From contig NC_134026.1 of NCBI RefSeq assembly GCF_964204645.1, positions 20,664,650 to 20,728,649 of the forward strand: 64,000 nucleotides of DNA, in the 5' to 3' direction. Source of the DNA: Tubulanus polymorphus. Taxonomy: Eukaryota > Nemertea > Palaeonemertea > Tubulaniformes > Tubulanidae. The notes beneath the pieces are model-generated. The model was not told the origin of the DNA and did no database searches. It was given only the letters and a program-made list of their open reading frames with translations. This document shows, piece by piece, positions 19,617-60,000 of the stretch; positions within the stretch are counted from its first letter, which is position 1; each line of letters opens with the position of its first letter. The translations under genes were made by a program, and so were the position numbers.

Positions 19617-20157
19617 CTCTAAAAATCCATTTCAACTAAAACAAAAGTTAATGCCTAGGTACGAACTCAGAAAAAACCTCGAATAAACTTCAATTTTTAA
19701 AAATAGATAGATGTTTGTCCCTAGGACGCTTTCGTATGTACCCATCTTCTTTATCAGGGAAACATCAGCAATAACGTATATGAATCGATGAATTCTGTAT
19801 GAACACTACTAACGCAGATATATACAACTGGTTCTACGTAACAATGTCGCAATACTCGTTAGGATACGGTGTATCTAACGCCCTATCCGTTAGAACGATG
19901 ATCAAGGTGACCTCATAGCCGAGGAACTGTGTCGAATTCAAAAAGTTGTCTCGACAAAATTTAGCTATCGCCCCTAGAAACAACATATCCAAAATGCAAT
20001 GGGCCCATGGTAATTTTTCGGAGTTCGAGTATGAGCCCGAGATCCGTTGTCGCCTATGGCTTGTCTTCTTCAAGTTCGCAGACATTCCTCGGACAATCGA
20101 CAATCTAACAACGCCATCGATATCATTCTTGAATATCATCATCTTTTGTCGTTTCAG

Positions 20158-20789
20158 ATACCGCGGTGTTAGTTGAGTGTGAAATTCACCAAAACAATGG
20201 CCTCGGAGGCAGTCAAGAAGAGATCTCGTTGGACGTCAGCAAATGTTCACGGGAGAGCCCTGAACATCATATTATTACTTCGAACGGTCGACCGTCGTCG
20301 ATGATAGAAGACGGCAATGGAATTATACTCGAGGACCTGCAGATAACTGCTCATAAACTCGACGAAAAATACCGATTCCACGCGTTCGTGTCGTACAACG
20401 CCAACGACAGGCCGTGGGTAGAAAACGTCGTCAAAAGACTAGAAGGCGAGCCGTACTGTTTTCAGCTGTGTTTCGACGAACGGGACTTCGATCGGAAAGT
20501 GTCCGAGATTCAGAACATCGTATGCTCGATCATGTTGAGCGAACGAATCGTGATCATATTATCGCCGAGCTACGTGGACAACTCGTGGCAACAATACGAA
20601 GACACTATTGCCCACATCACGTCGATATCTCAACACAAACAACGAGTGGTCCTCGTCGTTCTGGAAGAATGCGAAATTCCCGACGCGCTGAAGTCGTTGA
20701 ATTTCATCTACGCTCAGAACAAGAACCACTGGAATAGACTGCTGCTGTCGCTGAGACATGGTTTGTATCATATTCCGATGCGGGGTTAA
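20158..20789 (+). CDS. TIR-domain protein, C-terminal exon
   Basis: The exon follows a TTTCAG acceptor and starts with two bases of a split codon. It encodes 209 residues and ends at TGA. About 60 polar N-terminal residues precede a TIR domain of about 135 residues. Box 1 is FHAFVSYNAND, and the next helix is WVENVVKRLE. The box 2 region is LCFDERDFDRKVSEIQNI, followed by IVIILSPSYVDNSWQQYE and, at box 3, NHWNRLL. The overall order matches TIR domains of Toll-like receptors and MyD88, which pass signals by TIR-TIR contact. The proline-glycine of the BB loop is absent. No membrane segment or leucine-rich repeat is encoded here, so a cytosolic TIR-only protein or adaptor is the simplest reading. 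Missing upstream exons could still carry other domains. Confidence 0.85.
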
Positions 20790-32414: not shown

Positions 32415-35345
32415 ATGTTGTCAACTGCTGAGGAAAATGTTTTCGATGTTGTTGTAATTGGAGCAGGAATTGAAGGGTCCTGTACTGCTTATCAATTGGC
32501 GCGCGATGGCATCAAAACGCTTCTATTAGAACAGGTCAGGTACTTGGCATCTTTAGAAAATCTTCCTTGCTTTATTCTATTAGAGGGTATAATTACTGAG
32601 GTGTATGATTTAAATGACTAACAAAGTGTTTCACTCTGTACATAATGTTGCATTATACCGACCAAAATGATATTTCTATGAAAGTGATACCGTATTGCTA
32701 TATACTACATATTAGCTTTTTCAAAGCATAGAGAAGTGAAAAGCCTTTTCTCGTCGCTTTTTAATTCATTTCTTTTCTATTCTTTATTATATAATCAGTA
32801 TAGCCATCAAAAAGATTTTTGAAAACGCTTTCGCACGCATGTACGTTTTCGTCTCACCGACGTTCTAAGAGCACTTGAACAATACGATTATCTATATCTA
32901 TATGGACACGTTCTATTGATTGGAGTAAAAAACAAGTATATATTGTCAGTTTCTGTACATTTCAGTTTTTATTACCTACCTCAAGAGGCAGTTCCCACGG
33001 CCAGACCCGGTGTACTAGGAAATTCTATTGCAATGAAATGTATATCAAGATGATGCAAGATGCATACGACGAATGGTCGACGATTGAAAATCTGACCGGG
33101 CAAGAATTATACAAGTATATATATTTAATATATCAGAAGGCACAACAGTGAATCCCCTTCACTGAGGGTTCGATTACATGTATAATACCTCAGTAAAGGT
33201 AGGCGAGCCCTGAATTATAGTAGAGATGATCAATCGAATCATATCCAAGGGTGATTTAGGGTGGACTCTGGTACCAAACAACAGTTTATCTCAGTAATGC
33301 CTTGTGCCAATGCTCTGTGAAGAAAATATCGAATAATAATCGTTGGTCGGTCGGTTGGTCGCTCTGACCGACGCAGGGGCCCCAATCTTTTACCCGAAGC
33401 GAATATGTTATAAGGGTGGATATTAATTCTCTTACAGACAGTCGGGGATCTTATTCGTCAGTAGGTATGAGAATGATAATGAAAGTGAATCGTTGAAGGA
33501 AATGATCGCCCAGAACAATATCAAGCACGAGGTTTTGACTAAAGACGAAGCTATTGAGCAGTTCCCTATGCTTAGATACGATGACGATGCTAATTTTTTC
33601 CTGCTTGAACACGAAGCCGGATTTTTGAAATCGGACGAGTGTCTAAATGCAGCGCAGGTAAGGCATGACTACTTCAATCCAGCTGGAAAGGGCGTGGGTT
33701 AGAGAAGTTCATTAAAAAGAAAGATTTCTATTATCTCATCCTTTCTAAGTTCAATCCATAAAAATGGATAATTCATTTCGACTTCTCGAAAGAATTGTTT
33801 CTCTTTTTGTATAAGAAACTGTTTAAGCGGTTTGGTGGAGTTCTGCGTGATGGTGAAATGGTACAGAATATCGTCCCTGGTGAAATAGTTCAAATACGCA
33901 CGCAGGAAAATCTGTACACAGCTAAAAATGTCGTTATAACCGCCGGACCATGGACTTCCAAATTACTGAAACCGCTTCGAGTTCAACTACCCATCCAGGT
34001 AGGCAGAGTCACTCACATCACACAAAAAGGTTTCCGTACAACATACGATAAGCAATTTGGTGGCTGGGAATGCCATTTCTTCATCGGTGGTTTTCCTTTT
34101 ATTCATTTCTACAAATCTTTTGACCTTTCATCACGGAAACCCAGCCTGATTTTGCGTTTCTTTGCAGCCTTTGCGAATACTGGTCTGCTACTTCAGAGAG
34201 AAAATCGCCGGAACGTACAAAATGCCACAGGTTCCGATTACACTTTACAGAGTTCAAAACAGAGATATCTTCACGATGCCACCAATCGAATATCCAAATC
34301 TCACGAAGGTACAGTTTGACAAAATGTCAAACCCGAGTTAAACGTCAATATATCTAACGGATCACTTTGGGACTGGCAATTTCTGCGTGTCCATCAGTAT
34401 CCTATTCTATAAATACGTAGGTGGTATACTGCGATGGTCCAAATGTGGATCCCGATAACACTGATAGAAATCCAGACGGAAGCAAGGAGTATCTTGAGAA
34501 AATCTGCAACCACGTAAAAGATCATTTACCCGGTTTGGAACCCATACCGTCAATTATTGAGACTTGCATATTTACCGTGAGTCACTATACATATTGAATG
34601 CATATTTCATCTCGAGTACAAAATATTTGTTTTTAATGTTACCCCACAGATTCCAAAACGAAGTCCATATGAATACACCACTTTATCAAACCACTGACTT
34701 GTTTCCGTTTCATATTCTAACATTTCCGCAGATGACCCCTGATGGATGCTTCATACTTGATCATCATCCACAGCATAGAAATATTGTTATCGGTGCCGGA
34801 TTTTCAGGTGAATTTGTTTATAATTTAAGACACGAAGATGATTTAATCAATTAATGAAATAATCGAAATACAAGGGTTCGTGGGCAGGATATAAGCGTAG
34901 TTAGTTACCATTGGTCAGAAGGTTGAAAACCCTTGTACCCCTTATATATAGGGAATAGTGAGAATGCCTAAAGCCCACCGCTCACGACAAAACGGAAACA
35001 AACATTTTGGAAACCATTTTTATCGCAAACGCACTCGACACAATGAGACGCTCGGAAACAAGTTTCTGTCTCCTGTTTTCGTGTTTCGTGTTACCTCTGC
35101 ATTGTGTGCATTGGGTAACGTCAATCGTTTCTTTCCTCGTACCCTTAACCGATGTCTAATTTTCTTTCGTGACAGGTCATGCATTCAAGTTAGCGCCAGT
35201 AGTTGGTAAACTGTTGAAGCAGTTAGTTACCGGTGAAAAACCGGCTCACGATATGCGTCCTTTCAGCATGCAACGATTTGGCAAGATCCCGGAAACAAGG
35301 GCGCCGTATCAAGGCTTCATTATAGAGGCCTTGAAAATACCTTGA
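32415..35345 (+). CDS. PIPOX-family flavin oxidase, copy A
   Basis: Eight exons: 32415-32534, 32966-33114, 33438-33657, 33816-33998, 34168-34308, 34421-34576, 34732-34807, 35176-35345. They give 404 residues with phases consistent throughout (human PIPOX has 390). The family oxidises sarcosine or L-pipecolate with FAD, making H2O2. Exon 1 carries the FAD-binding [21 protein letters not shown]; exon 2 has [10 protein letters not shown], matching the substrate/flavin region of monomeric sarcosine oxidase. Exon 4 has [14 protein letters not shown]. Exons 6-7 give [13 protein letters not shown], in which Cys is the expected covalent flavin anchor. Exons 7-8 give [20 protein letters not shown]. 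The expected active-site His is Cys (KVVYCDG). The tail ends ALKIP, not a canonical peroxisomal signal. AATAAA lies at 35528 and 35586. Confidence 0.88.
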
Positions 35346-36273: not shown

Positions 36274-39200
36274 ATGATGATTTCAACTGCTGGCAATAGC
36301 TTTTTCGACGTTGTTGTGATAGGAGCAGGAATTGAGGGGTCCTGTACTGCTTATCAATTTGCACGCGATGGCGTAAAAACACTACTATTGGAACAGGTCA
36401 GGCACTCGTCATCTATTTACTCTACGTTACTCGGGGTAAAGGTAAAAAGCTTTACAAATGATATAATTACCGAAGGAAATCATTAACAAGGTTATTCACC
36501 AAGAAATTCATGCGGACGCCTATAGTACATATTTCAGTGCTATACAGGCCAAAATGATATTTCTATTAAAGTGATACTCTTTCCTTTTTAAAGAACGTTT
36601 TTATTAGCGATTCGATGTGCACTAAAGTGATATACAGTAGTTACGTATATACAAGGTTTCTTTTTACGAAGTGAAAAGGCCGCTTTTTCTATTATTCTTT
36701 TTTTCTTCATTTTCTATTATATTATTTGTATAGGTATTGAACAGGTTTATGAAGTTACTTTTGCGCTTAACGTTCGTCCCACGTTGATTTTTTACATGTA
36801 TTTCAACTAAACTCAGGTTATTTACAAATGACGATTAGGGCGTGATTGATTTGACACACAAGAGAAAATTTGAAAGAAAAATGATAGTAATTTATTTTTC
36901 ATTTAACTTACATTTACATGAATGTTTACAGCAAAGAAACATGAATTATAGTTAAATGAAGGTAACGGTGAGAGCCTTATTAGGCCACTGCATCTTGGTG
37001 CTTAGAGTGCAAAGATGTACAAGTGCAGGGAATTGAAAAATGATAAATAATAACAATGCTGGCATATTGGAATGTTTTTTATGACAATTGGTATGAACAT
37101 GCACACATTTCTTAATTCATATTCATTTTTGAGTTGCATTAGAACTTCGAATTTTAAAGAGGTTGGATTGACCAAAAAAAATGAGGGATTGAGCGCCATC
37201 TCACAATTACTGAAAAATTTACAACAACAAGATAAGAGCCTTTGGACTTAGGGTTATGTACGTGGACATACTTATCCTATATTTAAGACTAATATATATC
37301 GTAAGTTTCTGTACATTTCAGTTTTTATTACCTAGCTCAAGAGGCAGTTCCCACGGCAAGACCCGGGGTACTAGGAAATTCGATTGCGATGAAAGTTACG
37401 TCAAGATGATGCAAGACGCATACGGCGAATGGTCGACGATTGAAAATTTGACCGGGCAAGAATTATACAAGTATATATCTATTGATAAGACGGCGGGGTT
37501 TCATCACCATGCATCAGATACTTTTTGGATACTTGAGTAAAAGTAAGCGAGCACAAGATCCCGTGAAGATTGGTACCAAAAATTTAGTTTATCTCGGTGT
37601 AGTAAACTATGCCTTGTGCTAATGCTCGGTGATGAAAATAGACATACTGAATAATACATGAAAATCTACCAAATATTTGGTATTTACTTAAATATAGGTC
37701 GAAAATCAATTTCATGAAAGAATATTCGAATAGGGTTTTTACTCCCGCTCAACCATTGTTTATTGATGGATTGATTAATTTGTGTTGATTTAAACTTATT
37801 TTGCCTGCACAGTAATACGATGGATAATGATATAACAATATATAAGTTTATTTCTTTACTTAAAAGTACGTACGATACAAAAAAAGAAGCGGTTAACATT
37901 TCTACAAACACAAAGCAGTGCATCCAGTCTAACCGGTGCACTGGCCTCGATTTTTTACCCGAAACGAATATGATTATGTTATAAGCATGGATAGCATTTC
38001 TCTTACAGGCAGTCGGGGATGTTATTAGTCAGTAGGTGTGAGAATGAAAATGAAAGCGAATCGTTGAAGGAAATGATCGCCCAGAACAATATCAAGCACA
38101 CGGTTCTGACCAAAGACGAAGCTATTGAACAGTTCCCTATGCTTAGATACGATGACGATGCTAATTTTTTCCTGCTTGAGCACGAAGCCGGAATTTTGAA
38201 ATCGGACAAGTGTCTAAATGCAGCGCAGGTAAGGCATACGCCTACTTCATTTCGGCTGGAAAGGAGCAGGTTTAAATGGTTACATTTTCACTGAAAAGTG
38301 AATTTCTATTATCTTATCCTTTCTAAGTTCAATCCATAAAAATGGATTATTATTAATTTTGACTGCTGGAATATATGTTTTATTTTTGTATAAGGAATTG
38401 TTTAAGCGGTTTGGTGGGATTCTGCGTGATGGTGAAATGGTTCAGGATATCGTCCCTGGTGAAATAGTTCATATACACACGCAAGTCAATCTGTACACAG
38501 CTAAAAACGTCGTTATAACCGCCGGACCATGGACTTCCAAATTACTGAAACCGCTTCGAGTTCAACTACCTATCCAGGTAGGCGGAGTTACTTTCATTAA
38601 ACAGCTAAAAATATGGTTTAGAACAAAAGGCCTAATTACCTTCAGTTATTGAAACTAAGTAGACCTAATTGGGTCTAATTGAAGAAACAAAGTATGCGAT
38701 ATCATTAATTTTTCATCGGTTTACCATTTCTATAAATCTGTAGACCTTTCATCACGAAAACCTAGCCTGATTTTACATTGTAGCCTTTGCGAATACTGGT
38801 CTGCTACTTCAGAGAAAAAATCGCCGGAACGTACAAAATGCCACATGTTCCGATTACACTTTATAAAGTTCAAAACAGAGATATGTACACGATGCCACCA
38901 TTCGAATATCCAAATCTCACGAAGGTAAAGTTTGATAAAACGTCCGACCCTGGTTTATACAATAATCAACCGGACGTTCGACAGGCATTAACCATTTTCC
39001 CAAAACGTGTTCGTCCGGGCATCGCCACCCCTATGGCAGTACCGCGGGTATTTTCTTATTTAGAAATGAATTAGGGTGTTATGTCTGAACCATCAAGTTT
39101 AGACATAACTTCACTATTTGTGAAAAAGTGCTCGCCCAAACTGAGGGGTTAGGTACAGACAGCAGATTTACAGCAGCATTACTAACGGGACTTGGCATCT

Positions 39201-39928
39201 CCGATACATGTATCTAATTTGCACGATTCTCGTAGGTGGTATACTGTGACGGTCCAAATATGGATCCTGATAACCCTGAAAGAAATTCAGAGGCAAGCAA
39301 AAAGTATCTTGAGAAAATTTGCAACCACGTAAAAGATCATTTTCCCGGATTAGAACCAATACCTTCAGTTATTGAGAACTGTATATACACCGTGAGTTGA
39401 TACTTATATACATATTGAATACACGTCTCGAGTACATAAATAAATTATGTAAATATTCAAGCTGTTCAATATATATCGCTTTCGAATGTAGCCTAATACA
39501 TGTAGATTCCAAAAACGGGGTCCATATGGTTACCACTATCAAACCACTGACCTGTGTCCGTTTTTTCTAACATTCCGCAGATGACCCCTGATGGAAGCTT
39601 CATACTTGATCATCATCCACAACATAGAAATATTGCTATCGGTGCCGGATTTTCAGGTAAATTCGTTTGATTTCAGACACAAAGCTGATATAACGAATTA
39701 ATGAATGAATCGAAATGCCCAGGATTTTTGGGTATGGGATAGTCTACTAGATTTCTTCGTATCCCTGCCAGGTTTATGATTTCTTCTTTCTTGACAGGTC
39801 ACGGATTCAAGTTAGCGCCAGTAGTCGGTAAACTATTAAAGCAGTTAGTCACTGGTGAAAAACCAGCTCACGATATGAACGCTTTCAGTATGCAACGATT
39901 CGACAAGATCCCGAAAAGCACGCTATAG
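36274..39928 (+). CDS. PIPOX-family flavin oxidase, copy B
   Basis: Eight exons: 36274-36396, 37322-37470, 38009-38228, 38395-38577, 38784-38924, 39236-39391, 39581-39656, 39798-39928. They give 392 residues, intact and in phase, with the same intron positions as copies A and C. The FAD motif ([21 protein letters not shown]) and the SRGSSHG loop are present. The covalent flavin Cys is kept ([13 protein letters not shown]). Cys again replaces the family His (KVVYCDG). The protein stops early, ending KIPKSTL, because exon 8 runs directly into sequence that is 3' UTR in copy C; about 140 bp seem deleted. An in-frame ATG at 36202 would lengthen the N-terminus but falls in what is 5' leader in the other copies, so I chose 36274. 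Confidence 0.87.
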
Positions 39929-40619: not shown

Positions 40620-43600
40620 ATGTTGTCAACTGCTGAGGAAAATGTTTTTGACGTTGTCGTGATTGGAGCAGGGATTGAAGGGTCCTGTACTGCTTACCAA
40701 TTGGCGCGCGATGGCATCAAAACGCTTCTATTAGAACAGGTCAGGCACTCGTCATCTCTGGAAATTTTTCTCAATTTTATTGGACAAAGGGTATAATTAC
40801 TGAGGTGTATGATTAACATGATTAACAAAGTGTTTTACTCATCGAATTTCATGCGGACGTCTGTAGTACATAATTTTGCATTATACTGACCAAAATGATA
40901 TTTCTATTTAAGAGATTCGATATTTTAAAGCTATATGTACTTTTCAGTATTCCAGCTTTTTTAACGTGAATAGCCTTTTCTCGCACCTTCTTATTCATTA
41001 TTTTCTATTTCACTTTATCATATCTATTGTATAGCCTTTTAAAAGTTTTCGAATATGCTTTTGTACCGTACTCTATGTGGACATATTCTATTTATCAAAG
41101 TGAAAAACAAATATATATTGTCAGTTTTTGTACGTTTCAGTTTGTACTACCTAGTTCAAGAGGCAGTTCCCACGGCCAGACCCGGTGTACTAGGAAATTC
41201 TATTGCAATGAAATGTATATCAAGATGATGCAAGATGCATACGACGAATGGTCGACGATTGAAAATCTGACCGGTCAAGAATTATACAAGTATTTATCTT
41301 TGATATATCAGAAGGCACAACAGAGAATCCTTTTCACTTCCATGGCTCCCTTACTAATAAGTCAGATACTTTTTTGATGATACCTAAGTAAAAGGAAGCG
41401 AGCCAGGAATCATATTCAAGAGTGAATCTAGGGTGGTTTCTGGTACCAAAAAACAGTTTATCTCAGTATAGTAATGCCTTGTGCCAATGCTTTGTGATGA
41501 AATAACTAAATAATGGATAAATACTCGTCCAGGTTTTAGCATTTATCTGAAATATTGGTTGCGTATCAATTTGGCCTGTCAATTACAAACCACCACACTT
41601 ACCAGTACGAAACAGACTGCTGTTAATATTCTAACAAACACGAAGCAGTACATCCAGTCCGACCGATGCTCGGGCCTCAACCTTTTACCTGAAATATATG
41701 ATTATGTTATAAGCATGGATATAATTTCTCTTACAGACAGTCGGAGATGTTATTAGTCAGTAGGTGTGAGAATGATAATGAAAGTGAATCGTTGAAGGAA
41801 ATGATCGCCCAGCACAATATCAAGCACACGGTTCTGACTAAAAACGAAGCTATTGAACTGTTCCCCATGCTTAGATACGATGATGCTAATTTGTTCCTGC
41901 TTGAACACGAAGCCGGAATTTTAAGAGCGGATAAGTGTCTAAATGCAGCGCAGGTAAGGCATGCGCCTACTTCATCTAAGCTGGAAAGGGTACGGGTCGG
42001 TTTGAGTATGTTCTTAAAAAGTATTTCTATTATCATATCCTTTTTTATAAAATTCAATCCGTAAAGATCTTCTTTATTTTTCATTTCGACTTCTCGAATA
42101 AATTTCTTCTTTTTGTATAAGGAACTGTTTAAGCGGTTAGGTGGGATTCTGCGTGATGGTGAAATGGTACAGAATATCGTCCCTGGTGAAATAGTTCATA
42201 TACACACGCAAGATAATCTGTACACAGCTAAAAACGTCGTAATAACCGCCGGACCATGGACATCCAAATTACTGCAACCGCTTCGAGTTCAACTACCCAT
42301 CCAGGTAGGCAGAGTCACATCACACAAAAAGGTTACGCAGAACATACGATAAGTTATTTGGTGGCTGGGAATGCCGTTTCTTCATCAGTGGTTTTCCTTG
42401 TATGTCTAGAAATCTTTTCGTTCATCACAAAAATCCAGCCTGATTTTACATTTCCTTGCAGCCTTTGCGCATACTGGTCTGCTACTTCAGAGAGAAAATC
42501 GCCGGAACGTACAAAATGCCACATGTTCCGATTACACTTTACAAACTTCATAACAGAGATATCTTCACGGTGCCATCATTCGAATATCCAAATCTCACGA
42601 AGGTACGGTTTGACAAAATGTCAAACCCGAGTTTAACGTTGGTATTTCTAAAGGATTTTGGGACTGGCATCTCCAATACATGTATCTTATTTGCGCGATT
42701 CTGCAGGTGATATACTGCGACGGTCCACACGTGGACCCTGAAAATCCTGACAGAAATCCAGACGCAAGCAAAGAGTATCTTGAGAAAATCTGCAACCATG
42801 TAAAAGATAATTTTCCCGGATTGGAACCCATACCTTCAGTTATCGAGAGTGGCATATCCACCGTGAGTTACTACTACATATTGAATGCATATTTTAGCTC
42901 GAGTAAAAAATAAAACTTTTTCTGAAATAGTTTTCGTATGTTACCCAATAGATTCCTAAACTAAGTCCTATATGTAACTAAGAATACACCACTATCAAAC
43001 CACTAACCTGTGTCCGTTTTGTCAAACATTTCCGCAGATGACCCCTGATGGAAGCTTCATACTTGATCATCATCCACAACATAGAAATATTGCTATCGGT
43101 GCCGGATTTTCAGGTAAATTCGTTTATAATTTCACACACGGAGATGATTTAGTGAATTAATGAAAGAATCTAAATACCAGGACCCAGTTCCACAGTCGCG
43201 AGTTAGAGTTAACTCTGAGTTAAAGTTAGTTCATTTTCAATGTTTTAATCCAGAGTCAAATCTTAACTCAGAAATGTTGAACTGGGCCCAGTGTTCTGGG
43301 CAAGATTTAAGCCATTTAAGATTTTATTCTTTTATAATTTCACACACGGAGATGATTTAATGAATTAATGAAAGAATCTAAATACCAAGATTTCTGGGCA
43401 AGATTTAAGCGTAGTCACTTTCAATCGGTCAGAAGGCTGGAAACCTCTGTACCCCTTGTATGGAGAACAGTGAGAATGCACACGTCTGCACGGAAATCGA
43501 CATGTTTGATCTCGGAAACATTGCCATTGGCTCCCGAAACCATGTTTCTGGTTTCTCGTAAACGCACGACACAGGGACACGCTCGGGAGCAAGTTTGGCC

Positions 43601-43863
43601 ACAGGTCTCCTGTATTCATCTTTCTCTGCGACATGTGCATTGGGTTCTACAACGGTAATCGTTTCTTTCTTCGTACCCCTAACCGATTTCATTATTTGTC
43701 TTTCTTGACAGGTCATGGATTCAAGTTAGCGCCAGTAGTCGGTAAACTGCTAAAGCAGTTAGTTACTGGTGAAAAACCAGCTCACGATATGAGTCCTTTC
43801 AGCATGCAACGATTTGACAAGAACCCGGAAGGATTCTCTGTAGGGGCCTTGAAAGGACCTTGA
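40620..43863 (+). CDS. PIPOX-family flavin oxidase, copy C, lacking flavin Cys
   Basis: Eight exons: 40620-40739, 41141-41289, 41737-41953, 42122-42304, 42462-42602, 42707-42862, 43038-43113, 43712-43863. They give 397 residues, in phase throughout. The FAD-binding motif and [10 protein letters not shown] loop are intact, and exon 1 has the same protein sequence as copy A. The key change is [13 protein letters not shown]: Gly (GGC) stands where copies A and B have Cys (TGC or TGT), the residue that binds FAD covalently in this family, and the aromatic residue two positions on is Ser. Cys replaces the family His (KVIYCDG), as in the other copies. Exon 3 lacks one codon relative to A and B (DDAN for DDDAN). 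The tail ends GALKGP. With no stops or frameshifts it may still be expressed, perhaps with non-covalent FAD or reduced activity. Confidence 0.87.
43127..43395 (+). repeat. Tandem duplication in intron 7 of copy C with an inserted MITE
   Basis: A stretch containing ATTTCACACACGGAGATGAT, GAATTAATGAAAGAATCTAAATACCA and CTGGGCAAGATTTAAG occurs twice. The first copy is interrupted at 43182-43291 by a small element with ends CCCAGTTC and GAACTGGG. Copies A and B have only one version of this intron stretch. Confidence 0.7.
43182..43291. mobile_element. Miniature inverted-repeat element, about 110 bp
   Basis: Terminal CCCAGTTCCACAG and TTGAACTGGG, with inner inverted motifs GAGTTAGAGTTAACTC and TCTTAACTCAG. 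Its absence from the second unit of the local duplication and from the sister gene copies shows it is an insertion. Confidence 0.65.
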
Positions 43864-57000: not shown

Positions 57001-60000
57001 TAAAAATCTCTATTACTCACAATTATAATTTAAAGGCAATTCATTTGCAAGGTTTTGCTATCACTTGTATCATTGCGATTACAACAAACATTCATACAAA
57101 TATATACCATCGATTCAAAAGGAAGAGTTTCTGCAGGCAGGTGACAAGGGTGAAGCAGGTAGGAGAACAGATGGTGGTGTGTAGCTGATGGTGATTAAAC
57201 ACCCAATCATCGTGTGTCTTACCGACTTTTCATTGTGTTAGTTCGTGGATTGTTAAGCGTGTACGTGCCAGGTCGAGAATCGGGAGACCCATCATTGTCA
57301 TCATTGTCGGAATGAACAGCACTCACTGCGCCATCCAAACTATCTTCATCGTTCTTTTGATCATTTTGTCTTTCAATTTTCCGAACAGGTTTCTTATAAT
57401 CCACTGCCAAAGGTTTACGAGAATCGCTAACCATATCATCAGCACCATTCTCTGAACTCGTAGCATTTACATTCGGAGCCACAAATTCCGATTTACTGGT
57501 TTGTGTTGAATTATTGTTTTTGTTTGAATCCATTAGCCTCGGTTTCAGAGTTGGGAATGTCAAATTATCCAGTTCGACATCGTCGGCACCATTTTCAGAG
57601 TTGGTTGCACTAACATTTACCGATGGGATGATTGTAGCATCTTTAGGTTGAGGGAGATCTTTAAAAATCGGTTTTTCAAGAATTATGTTTATCTCCTCGT
57701 CCGTAAGTCGTTTCGGAGATCGCGAATTAGGATGATTTTTAGCATCTCCATTTGATTCGCTATCTTTAAGAGCAGTTGAGCTGGGTTGAAACTCATCCTG
57801 AGCTTCTTCCGGGCCAGGGCGTACAGTAGTGCCTAAATTTGGGGAAACCCCTAGCATGCCATCGTAAGATAACAAAGCATCCTTGATTTGATCATGTAAG
57901 GAAGAAGACTGACTATTCCTATCATTCGAATCAAGAGAAACTTTAGTATCTTCTTCATGTATAGTGCTACAATTATTGTTACTAAGAGCTGGGCTTATAT
58001 TCGCCGAATTCGGAGGCACTCTCAGTTCTAAAATGGAGTCTTCTACTAAATCATTTATAGTCACCGTATCGTCGGGTTTAGTTTCTATGCGAAGATCGTC
58101 ACTTTTTATTCTATTTCTGGTAGATTTTAATTTGCGTTTAGGTCGAGAAGGTCGTTCATACATTAGATCGTCGCTATCCGTGTCTATATCCTTTGCAACT
58201 CGAACAATATCCCGATTTTGCAGTGAATCGTCAGTCTTCGTATCAAGTATGTTGATGATAGGATCTGGTTCTTCGTTGCCACTGAGAGTTATTTTTTGAT
58301 CCAACGGTATCGACTTAAATGCCACATTCCTTCAAACAACACGAATGTCATGAATGATGTTCAGTAATTACATAAAGATCATTGAATTACACAATACTGT
58401 AACAGGCATCCCATTCATAACTATACGAATATGGTTTTGTTACTCTCATTTTATGTTGCTAATTTTTCATCTTTCTTACTTAGTTGTAAGCACATTATTG
58501 AATGATTCGCCTTCACTTTAGCATAGAACTTTACAAGACTCCATTACAGGTGGCTGAGTCTTGAAATATTTTACAAAAAATTCTTCATTGAAATGGTACA
58601 TGAATATAATTTGATAATGGGATGCCTGCCTAATTACCATTTTCACGAAATTACCATTAATCAAAATGACCTAGCCTGCCGGGCTTTGATCATGCTGATG
58701 ATGTGGTATCTAGTATATCAATTCAATTCAGTGTAGCACGATGATGGATCACAATATCCTGATTATGAATATTGATGAGGTGACTGAAATGCATCGCATA
58801 TGCAATAAATGGTATGAAAATTACAGTATTTCAAATTAGCTAATCAGTCAAAAAGCCAGGCAGGCCATTATTGTTGAGTTAAGTCTAGATCTGACATAGT
58901 GAAGCTAGCTTTCAAAATCAATGACAATCTCAAATTAAATTTTTGCTCCCCGGCTGATTGATAACTATTTTTCAAATTAATCATCATTTTGGATTGAGCT
59001 TCGATTGACAAACCTGAACTAGGTATCAAAGAAGGGTACATGGCTTACCTCAGCTAACTTATGATTATATAAAATGAAATTTTCAGTGGTCCAAATCAGA
59101 ATCCAAAGGATTAAGCAACACTCTAAAAGGACACCTTTTTAATGCACCTATCCTCCTTCCCATTAAAGGAGAAAGAACTCTAGGTGATCTAAAAAACTTT
59201 TGAAATTTTGATGCTTCTGTGAGCAAACACTGTTTCACCACAATTTCTGATGCTTAAAAAGGGTACTTTTACAGGATTGCAAGAATGAAAAAAATCAACT
59301 GGTTATTTCAATTGGTGTTATTAGTGGTGCATCATCTCAAAACTAGTGATTATACAACGCATGCATCGATTATAATCACAAAGAAGTGCATAGTGATTGA
59401 TCACTGCATCAGCAAAACATTTCAACAAAGTTATCTGTTCTGTTCTTCCGAAGTGAAGTGGCATTTCAAATTCCGAATTCATTTGATGAATCAAAAAAAA
59501 GGACGTAAATGCAAAAAATATAAACCACCCAACAAAAATGAAGAAATGACATGTACAGTTATTCTTTACCAAAAATTGAAGTTACTATTTCCGAGAATAT
59601 CATCATCGGCGGGTAGCGTATCGCTCGACGAGTCTGTAAAGAATTATCATAATTCGAGATAAAAAATATGAGCGCGAAGACTTACCGGTCTAACTGCCTC
59701 TGACGGTCGCTGTACGAGTCCTCGGCGATTCCCGAATCTTTCGTCTCCTGACTATATTTCGCGCGTCGCGACGACGTATCTGCAGTGGGAATTTTACGGG
59801 TGAGCAAATCAAAATAGAAACTCGTTCGGGAGCCGCACGGCGTCGCGCTCATCGGCGTACCCGACGCCGTCTGCCGCCGCGCGCTGGCCGGCGACCCCGA
59901 ACGGGTGCCGTTATCGTCATTGTTTTTATTGTTATTTATGAAGTTGTCATCGTCGTTCGTATCAGAATTTTCCAACAAATGAGGAGTTCGCAGTTCGGCG

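Follow-up and report, generated by a model that had tools for sequence, protein, structure and literature searches.

Five oxidase-family genes, three of them in tandem

The window (the whole 64,000-nucleotide stretch that we analyzed, C2:20664650-20728649, from a genome of 268 Mb in 77 contigs) carries three PIPOX-type genes in tandem on the plus strand, which we call copies A, B, and C. Each has eight exons with GT-AG introns and an uninterrupted frame. Residues are compared below to those of monomeric sarcosine oxidase (MSOX) from Bacillus (PDB 1zov, 1el5, and 2gb0). Copy A (32415-35345; 404 amino acids) keeps the flavin-linking cysteine as Cys320, and is changed at Phe259, Phe322, and Ala351 (MSOX Gly346). 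Copy B (36274-39928; 392 amino acids) keeps it as Cys321, and has Asp62 at the position of MSOX Tyr55.

Copy C (40620-43863) encodes 397 amino acids and ends in a TGA stop (43861-43863). It had been described as open across eight exons, and with the GT/AG borders that we find, it is. Exon 1 (40620-40739) encodes the dinucleotide-binding motif GAGIEG, and exon 2 (41141-41289) retains equivalents of His45, Arg49, Arg52, and Tyr55. Exon 3 (41737-41953) is one codon shorter than in copies A and B and stays in frame; it is followed by exon 4 (42122-42304). Exon 5 (42462-42602) contains Phe258, at MSOX Tyr254, and Lys270, at MSOX Lys265. The site of the lost cysteine lies in exon 6 (42707-42862), as does Cys274, at MSOX His269. 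After exon 7 (43038-43113), exon 8 (43712-43863) encodes GHGFK with Lys352, which corresponds to MSOX Lys348, and the C-terminus GALKGP. The interval singled out in the preliminary description (42707-43113) corresponds exactly to exons 6 and 7. In intron 7 (43126-43400), we saw by eye a near-repeat of about 55 bp (taatttcacacacggagatgattt...), whose units are about 210 bp apart and flank an insert.

Some 0.7 Mb from the array, the minus strand carries a second, head-to-tail pair of genes, copies D and E (C2:21421685-21429245), and the active-site residues are canonical in both. When we searched the whole genome with the family model, we identified no clear soxA_mon gene beyond these five, and the search for related loci gave few usable relatives in the genome contigs and none in the viral contigs.

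Copy C belongs to the DAO family (PF01266; 170.2 bits over residues 11-363, against a gathering score of 27.9). Copies C (401 bits), B (396), and E (417) each match TIGR01377 (soxA_mon) far better than any other family. All of these are under the curated cut-off of 479.65, which is missed by copies with and without the cysteine alike. Homology to the MSOX structures is full-length (phmmer, E = 1.5e-54 to 1zov). The predicted structure of copy C also matches the MSOX fold (E = 1e-22), but this is a low-confidence model (mean pLDDT of 58, site residues below 50) that we used for the overall fold only. We infer that copy C still folds as a DAO-type flavoprotein.

Elsewhere in the window, a 370-amino-acid open frame (57219-58331, minus strand) has no match in Pfam, and a 218-amino-acid open frame (20133-20789, plus strand) has a TIR domain (PF13676, 59.5 bits).

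The flavin-linking position of copy C

The position of the covalent-FAD cysteine is occupied in copy C by Gly319 (GGC, 42851-42853), and two residues on, the position of MSOX Tyr317 is occupied by Ser321 (TCC, 42857-42859). The site reads IETCIFTMTPDG in copy A, IENCIYTMTPDG in copy B, and IESGISTMTPDG in copy C; at the end of exon 6, copy C has VIESGIST, as compared to IETCIFT, IENCIYT, VETCIYT, and IETCIYT in copies A, B, D, and E, respectively. Both differences had been reported in the preliminary description (IESG instead of IETC or IENC, and a serine for the aromatic residue), which had also named MSOX Cys315 as the equivalent position. All of this is borne out by the phmmer alignment to the 1el5 chain, which has no gaps in this region and sets Gly319 against residue 315 of the chain, a cysteine. 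In a MAFFT alignment, the Cys315 column is cysteine in all 35 bacterial or archaeal homologues and in copies A, B, D, and E, and glycine in copy C only. At the Tyr317 column, the homologues have tyrosine (31) or phenylalanine (4). These 35 sequences are drawn from 398 Pseudomonadota genomes, along with eight plasmid-borne homologues from other groups (Bacillota, Actinomycetota, Gemmatimonadota, Deinococcota, Thermomicrobiota, and Halobacteria). Given the cysteine in all of these and in the other four copies, parsimony places the loss on the branch of copy C alone. As judged from these alignments, the loss is real and is unusual for the family.

Another cysteine might have taken over the flavin position, as the preliminary description had allowed. 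We looked for one in the alignment, and none of the other cysteines of copy C (23, 56, 62, 100, 157, 230, 274, and 299) aligned near the flavin site. We considered Cys274 as a stand-in tether that is specific to copy C and rejected it, because copies A and B share its equivalent and yet retain the flavin cysteine. Since the residue at the family's usual site is glycine, no 8-alpha-S-cysteinyl bond can be made there in copy C.

A base-calling or assembly error at the GGC codon would account for the glycine without any change in the gene, but we consider this very improbable. The neighboring codons 318, 319, and 321, all within 11 bp, are each unlike both A and B; the contig is 31.9 Mb long and the frames of all five copies are unbroken; and a genome search places copy C at a single location. 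We also rejected the idea that these differences are a patch of clustered errors or mutations: three copy-specific bases within 11 bp are nothing out of the ordinary (P = 0.87), and the densest cluster has four in any 11 bp (P = 0.17).

Constraint and decay

The preliminary description proposed that copy C might be an early pseudogene and suggested comparing its dN/dS to copies A and B. Among these three copies, pairwise dN/dS is 0.24-0.31. Under our purpose-written codon model for the five genes, the best tree was ((A,C),B,(D,E)), with a lead of 6.5 log units. In this tree, the copy C branch has an omega of 0.355, which is significantly different from 1 (p = 0.004) and is not significantly different from the background of 0.249 (p = 0.31). 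The branch with the highest omega of the three is that of copy A (0.449, not significantly raised). In the poorer tree ((A,B),C), copy C has an omega of 0.483, and omega = 1 is not rejected (p = 0.19). Gene conversion among the copies may blur the topology, as distances vary widely between exons.

We found no stops, frameshifts, or broken splice sites across the eight exons of copy C. Between copies A and C, 22.7% of aligned sites in the introns are mismatched, with 37 indels, 29 of which are not multiples of three; in the exons, 7.3% of sites are mismatched, with one in-frame indel and no frameshifting ones. When we simulated a neutral copy C branch, the probability of no stop was 0.006-0.12 for assumed distances of 0.12-0.05 per site, and 3.7% of simulations were stop-free at about 0.078, the fitted distance. 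The coding sequence of copy C has, in the best-fitting tree, been under purifying selection over most of its own branch, and neutral decay along the whole branch is disfavored.

The pseudogene proposal would then need full neutrality in the less likely ((A,B),C) tree or a recent loss of function, with stops not yet accumulated. A recent loss is consistent with the alteration of an otherwise invariant residue while copies A and B are still there to supply the function. The omega of copy C is a whole-branch average and is silent on the period after the cysteine changed. Also, copy C has about 25 copy-specific residue changes, and by chance one of these would be expected among 21 near-invariant sites, so we rejected near-full retention of those sites as proof of function. 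Still, the frame is open, the splice sites are intact, the only deletion is of 3 bp and in frame, and both the omega in the best tree and the rarity of stop-free outcomes in the simulations point the other way. Overall, we think that a recent pseudogene is fairly unlikely. If copy C is merely decaying, then it is a case of ordinary gene turnover.

Active sites, cofactor, and a proposed role for copy C

Copy C retains equivalents of the flavin- and carboxylate-anchoring residues of MSOX: Arg49, Arg52 (R58), Tyr55 (Y61), Lys265 (K270), and Lys348 (K352). In MSOX and PIPOX, Arg52, Tyr55, Lys348, and Lys265 make up the set for substrate-carboxylate binding and oxygen activation. In SoxB, the substrate's carboxylate is held by Arg52, Tyr55, and Lys348 (PMC12582975). 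Besides Cys315 to Gly, copy C differs from MSOX in its pocket by Tyr254 to Phe258, Tyr317 to Ser321, and His269 to Cys274. Replacing Tyr254 of SoxB with alanine or glycine lowered activity on sarcosine and raised activity on cyclic imino acids (PMC12582975), so changes in this pocket can shift the substrate; phenylalanine is a milder change. The columns of Tyr254 and His269 also vary in some of the 35 homologues.

In the preliminary description, copies A and B served as the reference for a normal sequence. This does not hold, as all three tandem copies are altered at the active site; a canonical-looking site is limited to D and E. His269 is replaced by cysteine in A, B, and C (34430-34432, 39245-39247, and 42716-42718, respectively) and is kept in D and E. 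Copy A shares the change of Tyr254 to phenylalanine with copy C; it also has phenylalanine at Tyr317, and GHAFK instead of GHGFK, with Ala351 (35181-35183) at Gly346. In copy B, the position of Tyr55 is occupied by Asp62 (GAT, 37382-37384); this position is tyrosine in 29 of the 35 homologues, and Tyr55 of MSOX is reported to be conserved and to have a role in holding the substrate's carboxylate (PMC12582975). Judging by these residues, the five copies form a graded series: D and E are canonical, A and B are partly altered, and C is at the far end, with Phe, Ser, Cys, and no tether.

Another proposal in the preliminary description was a non-covalent flavoenzyme. Glycine oxidase (ThiO) and D-amino acid dehydrogenase (DadA) are members of the DAO superfamily that hold FAD non-covalently. 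At the Cys315 column, glycine is present in 12/12 aligned ThiO sequences and in 8/9 aligned DadA sequences, and their motif SG[LI]xx[MA]TPDG resembles SGISTMTPDG of copy C. Glycine at this position is thus compatible with FAD binding in the DAO fold, which indicates tolerance and is not proof of adaptation. ThiO and DadA are not close relatives of copy C: the ThiO and DadA models give it 74 and 59 bits, as compared to 401 with soxA_mon, and the Arg-Pro that follows their motif is absent from copy C. Glycine can also be reached from TGC by one of few single-base changes, so the likeness may be a coincidence. By analogy, it is plausible that copy C binds FAD without the bond, and the proposal is strengthened to that extent.

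The third proposal in the preliminary description was a neofunctionalized binding protein. Along these lines, copy C may have lost stable FAD binding altogether and may persist as a ligand-binding or partner protein. The Cys315Ala mutant of MSOX is reportedly isolated largely as apoprotein. FsqB, an Aspergillus enzyme of fumisoquin synthesis from the same family, has the same cysteinyl-FAD chemistry (at Cys414) and, unlike copy C, keeps the covalent bond (PMC6222107). Its K448A mutant, altered at the equivalent of MSOX Lys348, was completely devoid of FAD (PMC6222107), so a failure to attach the flavin may leave the protein with none. That the pocket positions Tyr254, Tyr317, and His269 changed along with the cysteine while the branch stayed constrained also fits with a protein of this kind. 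On the other hand, GAGIEG and the equivalents of Arg49, Lys265, and Lys348 are all present in copy C, non-covalent relatives have glycine at the site, and there is no known partner. This explanation seems doubtful to us.

The reading we prefer, which we consider to have about an even chance of being correct, is that copy C is an intact paralog, within an MSOX/PIPOX-type tandem array, that lacks covalent flavin and has an altered substrate pocket. If it binds FAD, it would do so without a covalent bond, like ThiO and DadA, which have glycine at this position, and its substrate pocket would be altered by the phenylalanine at Tyr254, the serine at Tyr317, and the cysteine at His269. Instead of a standard sarcosine/pipecolate oxidase, copy C would then be an oxidase that is weak or redirected and whose FAD is dissociable. 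We tentatively extend this to a broader proposal, which is rather less likely to hold: that a metazoan PIPOX-family enzyme has naturally shed its flavin bond and now has dissociable FAD and a different substrate, at the end of a five-copy series that leads from D and E through A and B to C. The purpose of covalent FAD in some flavoenzymes is still debated, and the evidence is mostly from engineered mutants. A natural and constrained paralog with glycine, beside cysteine copies whose proteins are about 87% identical, would make the cost or benefit of the bond testable.

The relationship to animal peroxisomal sarcosine/L-pipecolate oxidase (PIPOX) is assigned by homology and from the genome context, which is apparently that of an animal, as suggested by the intron-rich genes, their tandem duplication, and their PIPOX type. 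In this respect as well, the features of copies D and E are canonical (flavin cysteine, active-site histidine, and a Ser-Ser-Leu end). Unlike animal PIPOX, copy C has neither the covalent-FAD cysteine, given as Cys319 of the human protein in the preliminary description, nor a PTS1-like end. The C-terminus is KS[ST]L in copies B, D, and E (STL in B, SSL in D and E), which would itself be non-canonical as PTS1. Copies A (35300-35345) and C (43830-43863) have different and longer C-termini, ALKIP and ALKGP, and so end in KIP and KGP. It is possible that peroxisomal targeting has changed in both of these copies; with the Ser-Ser/Thr-Leu C-terminus lost, copy C may not be peroxisomal.
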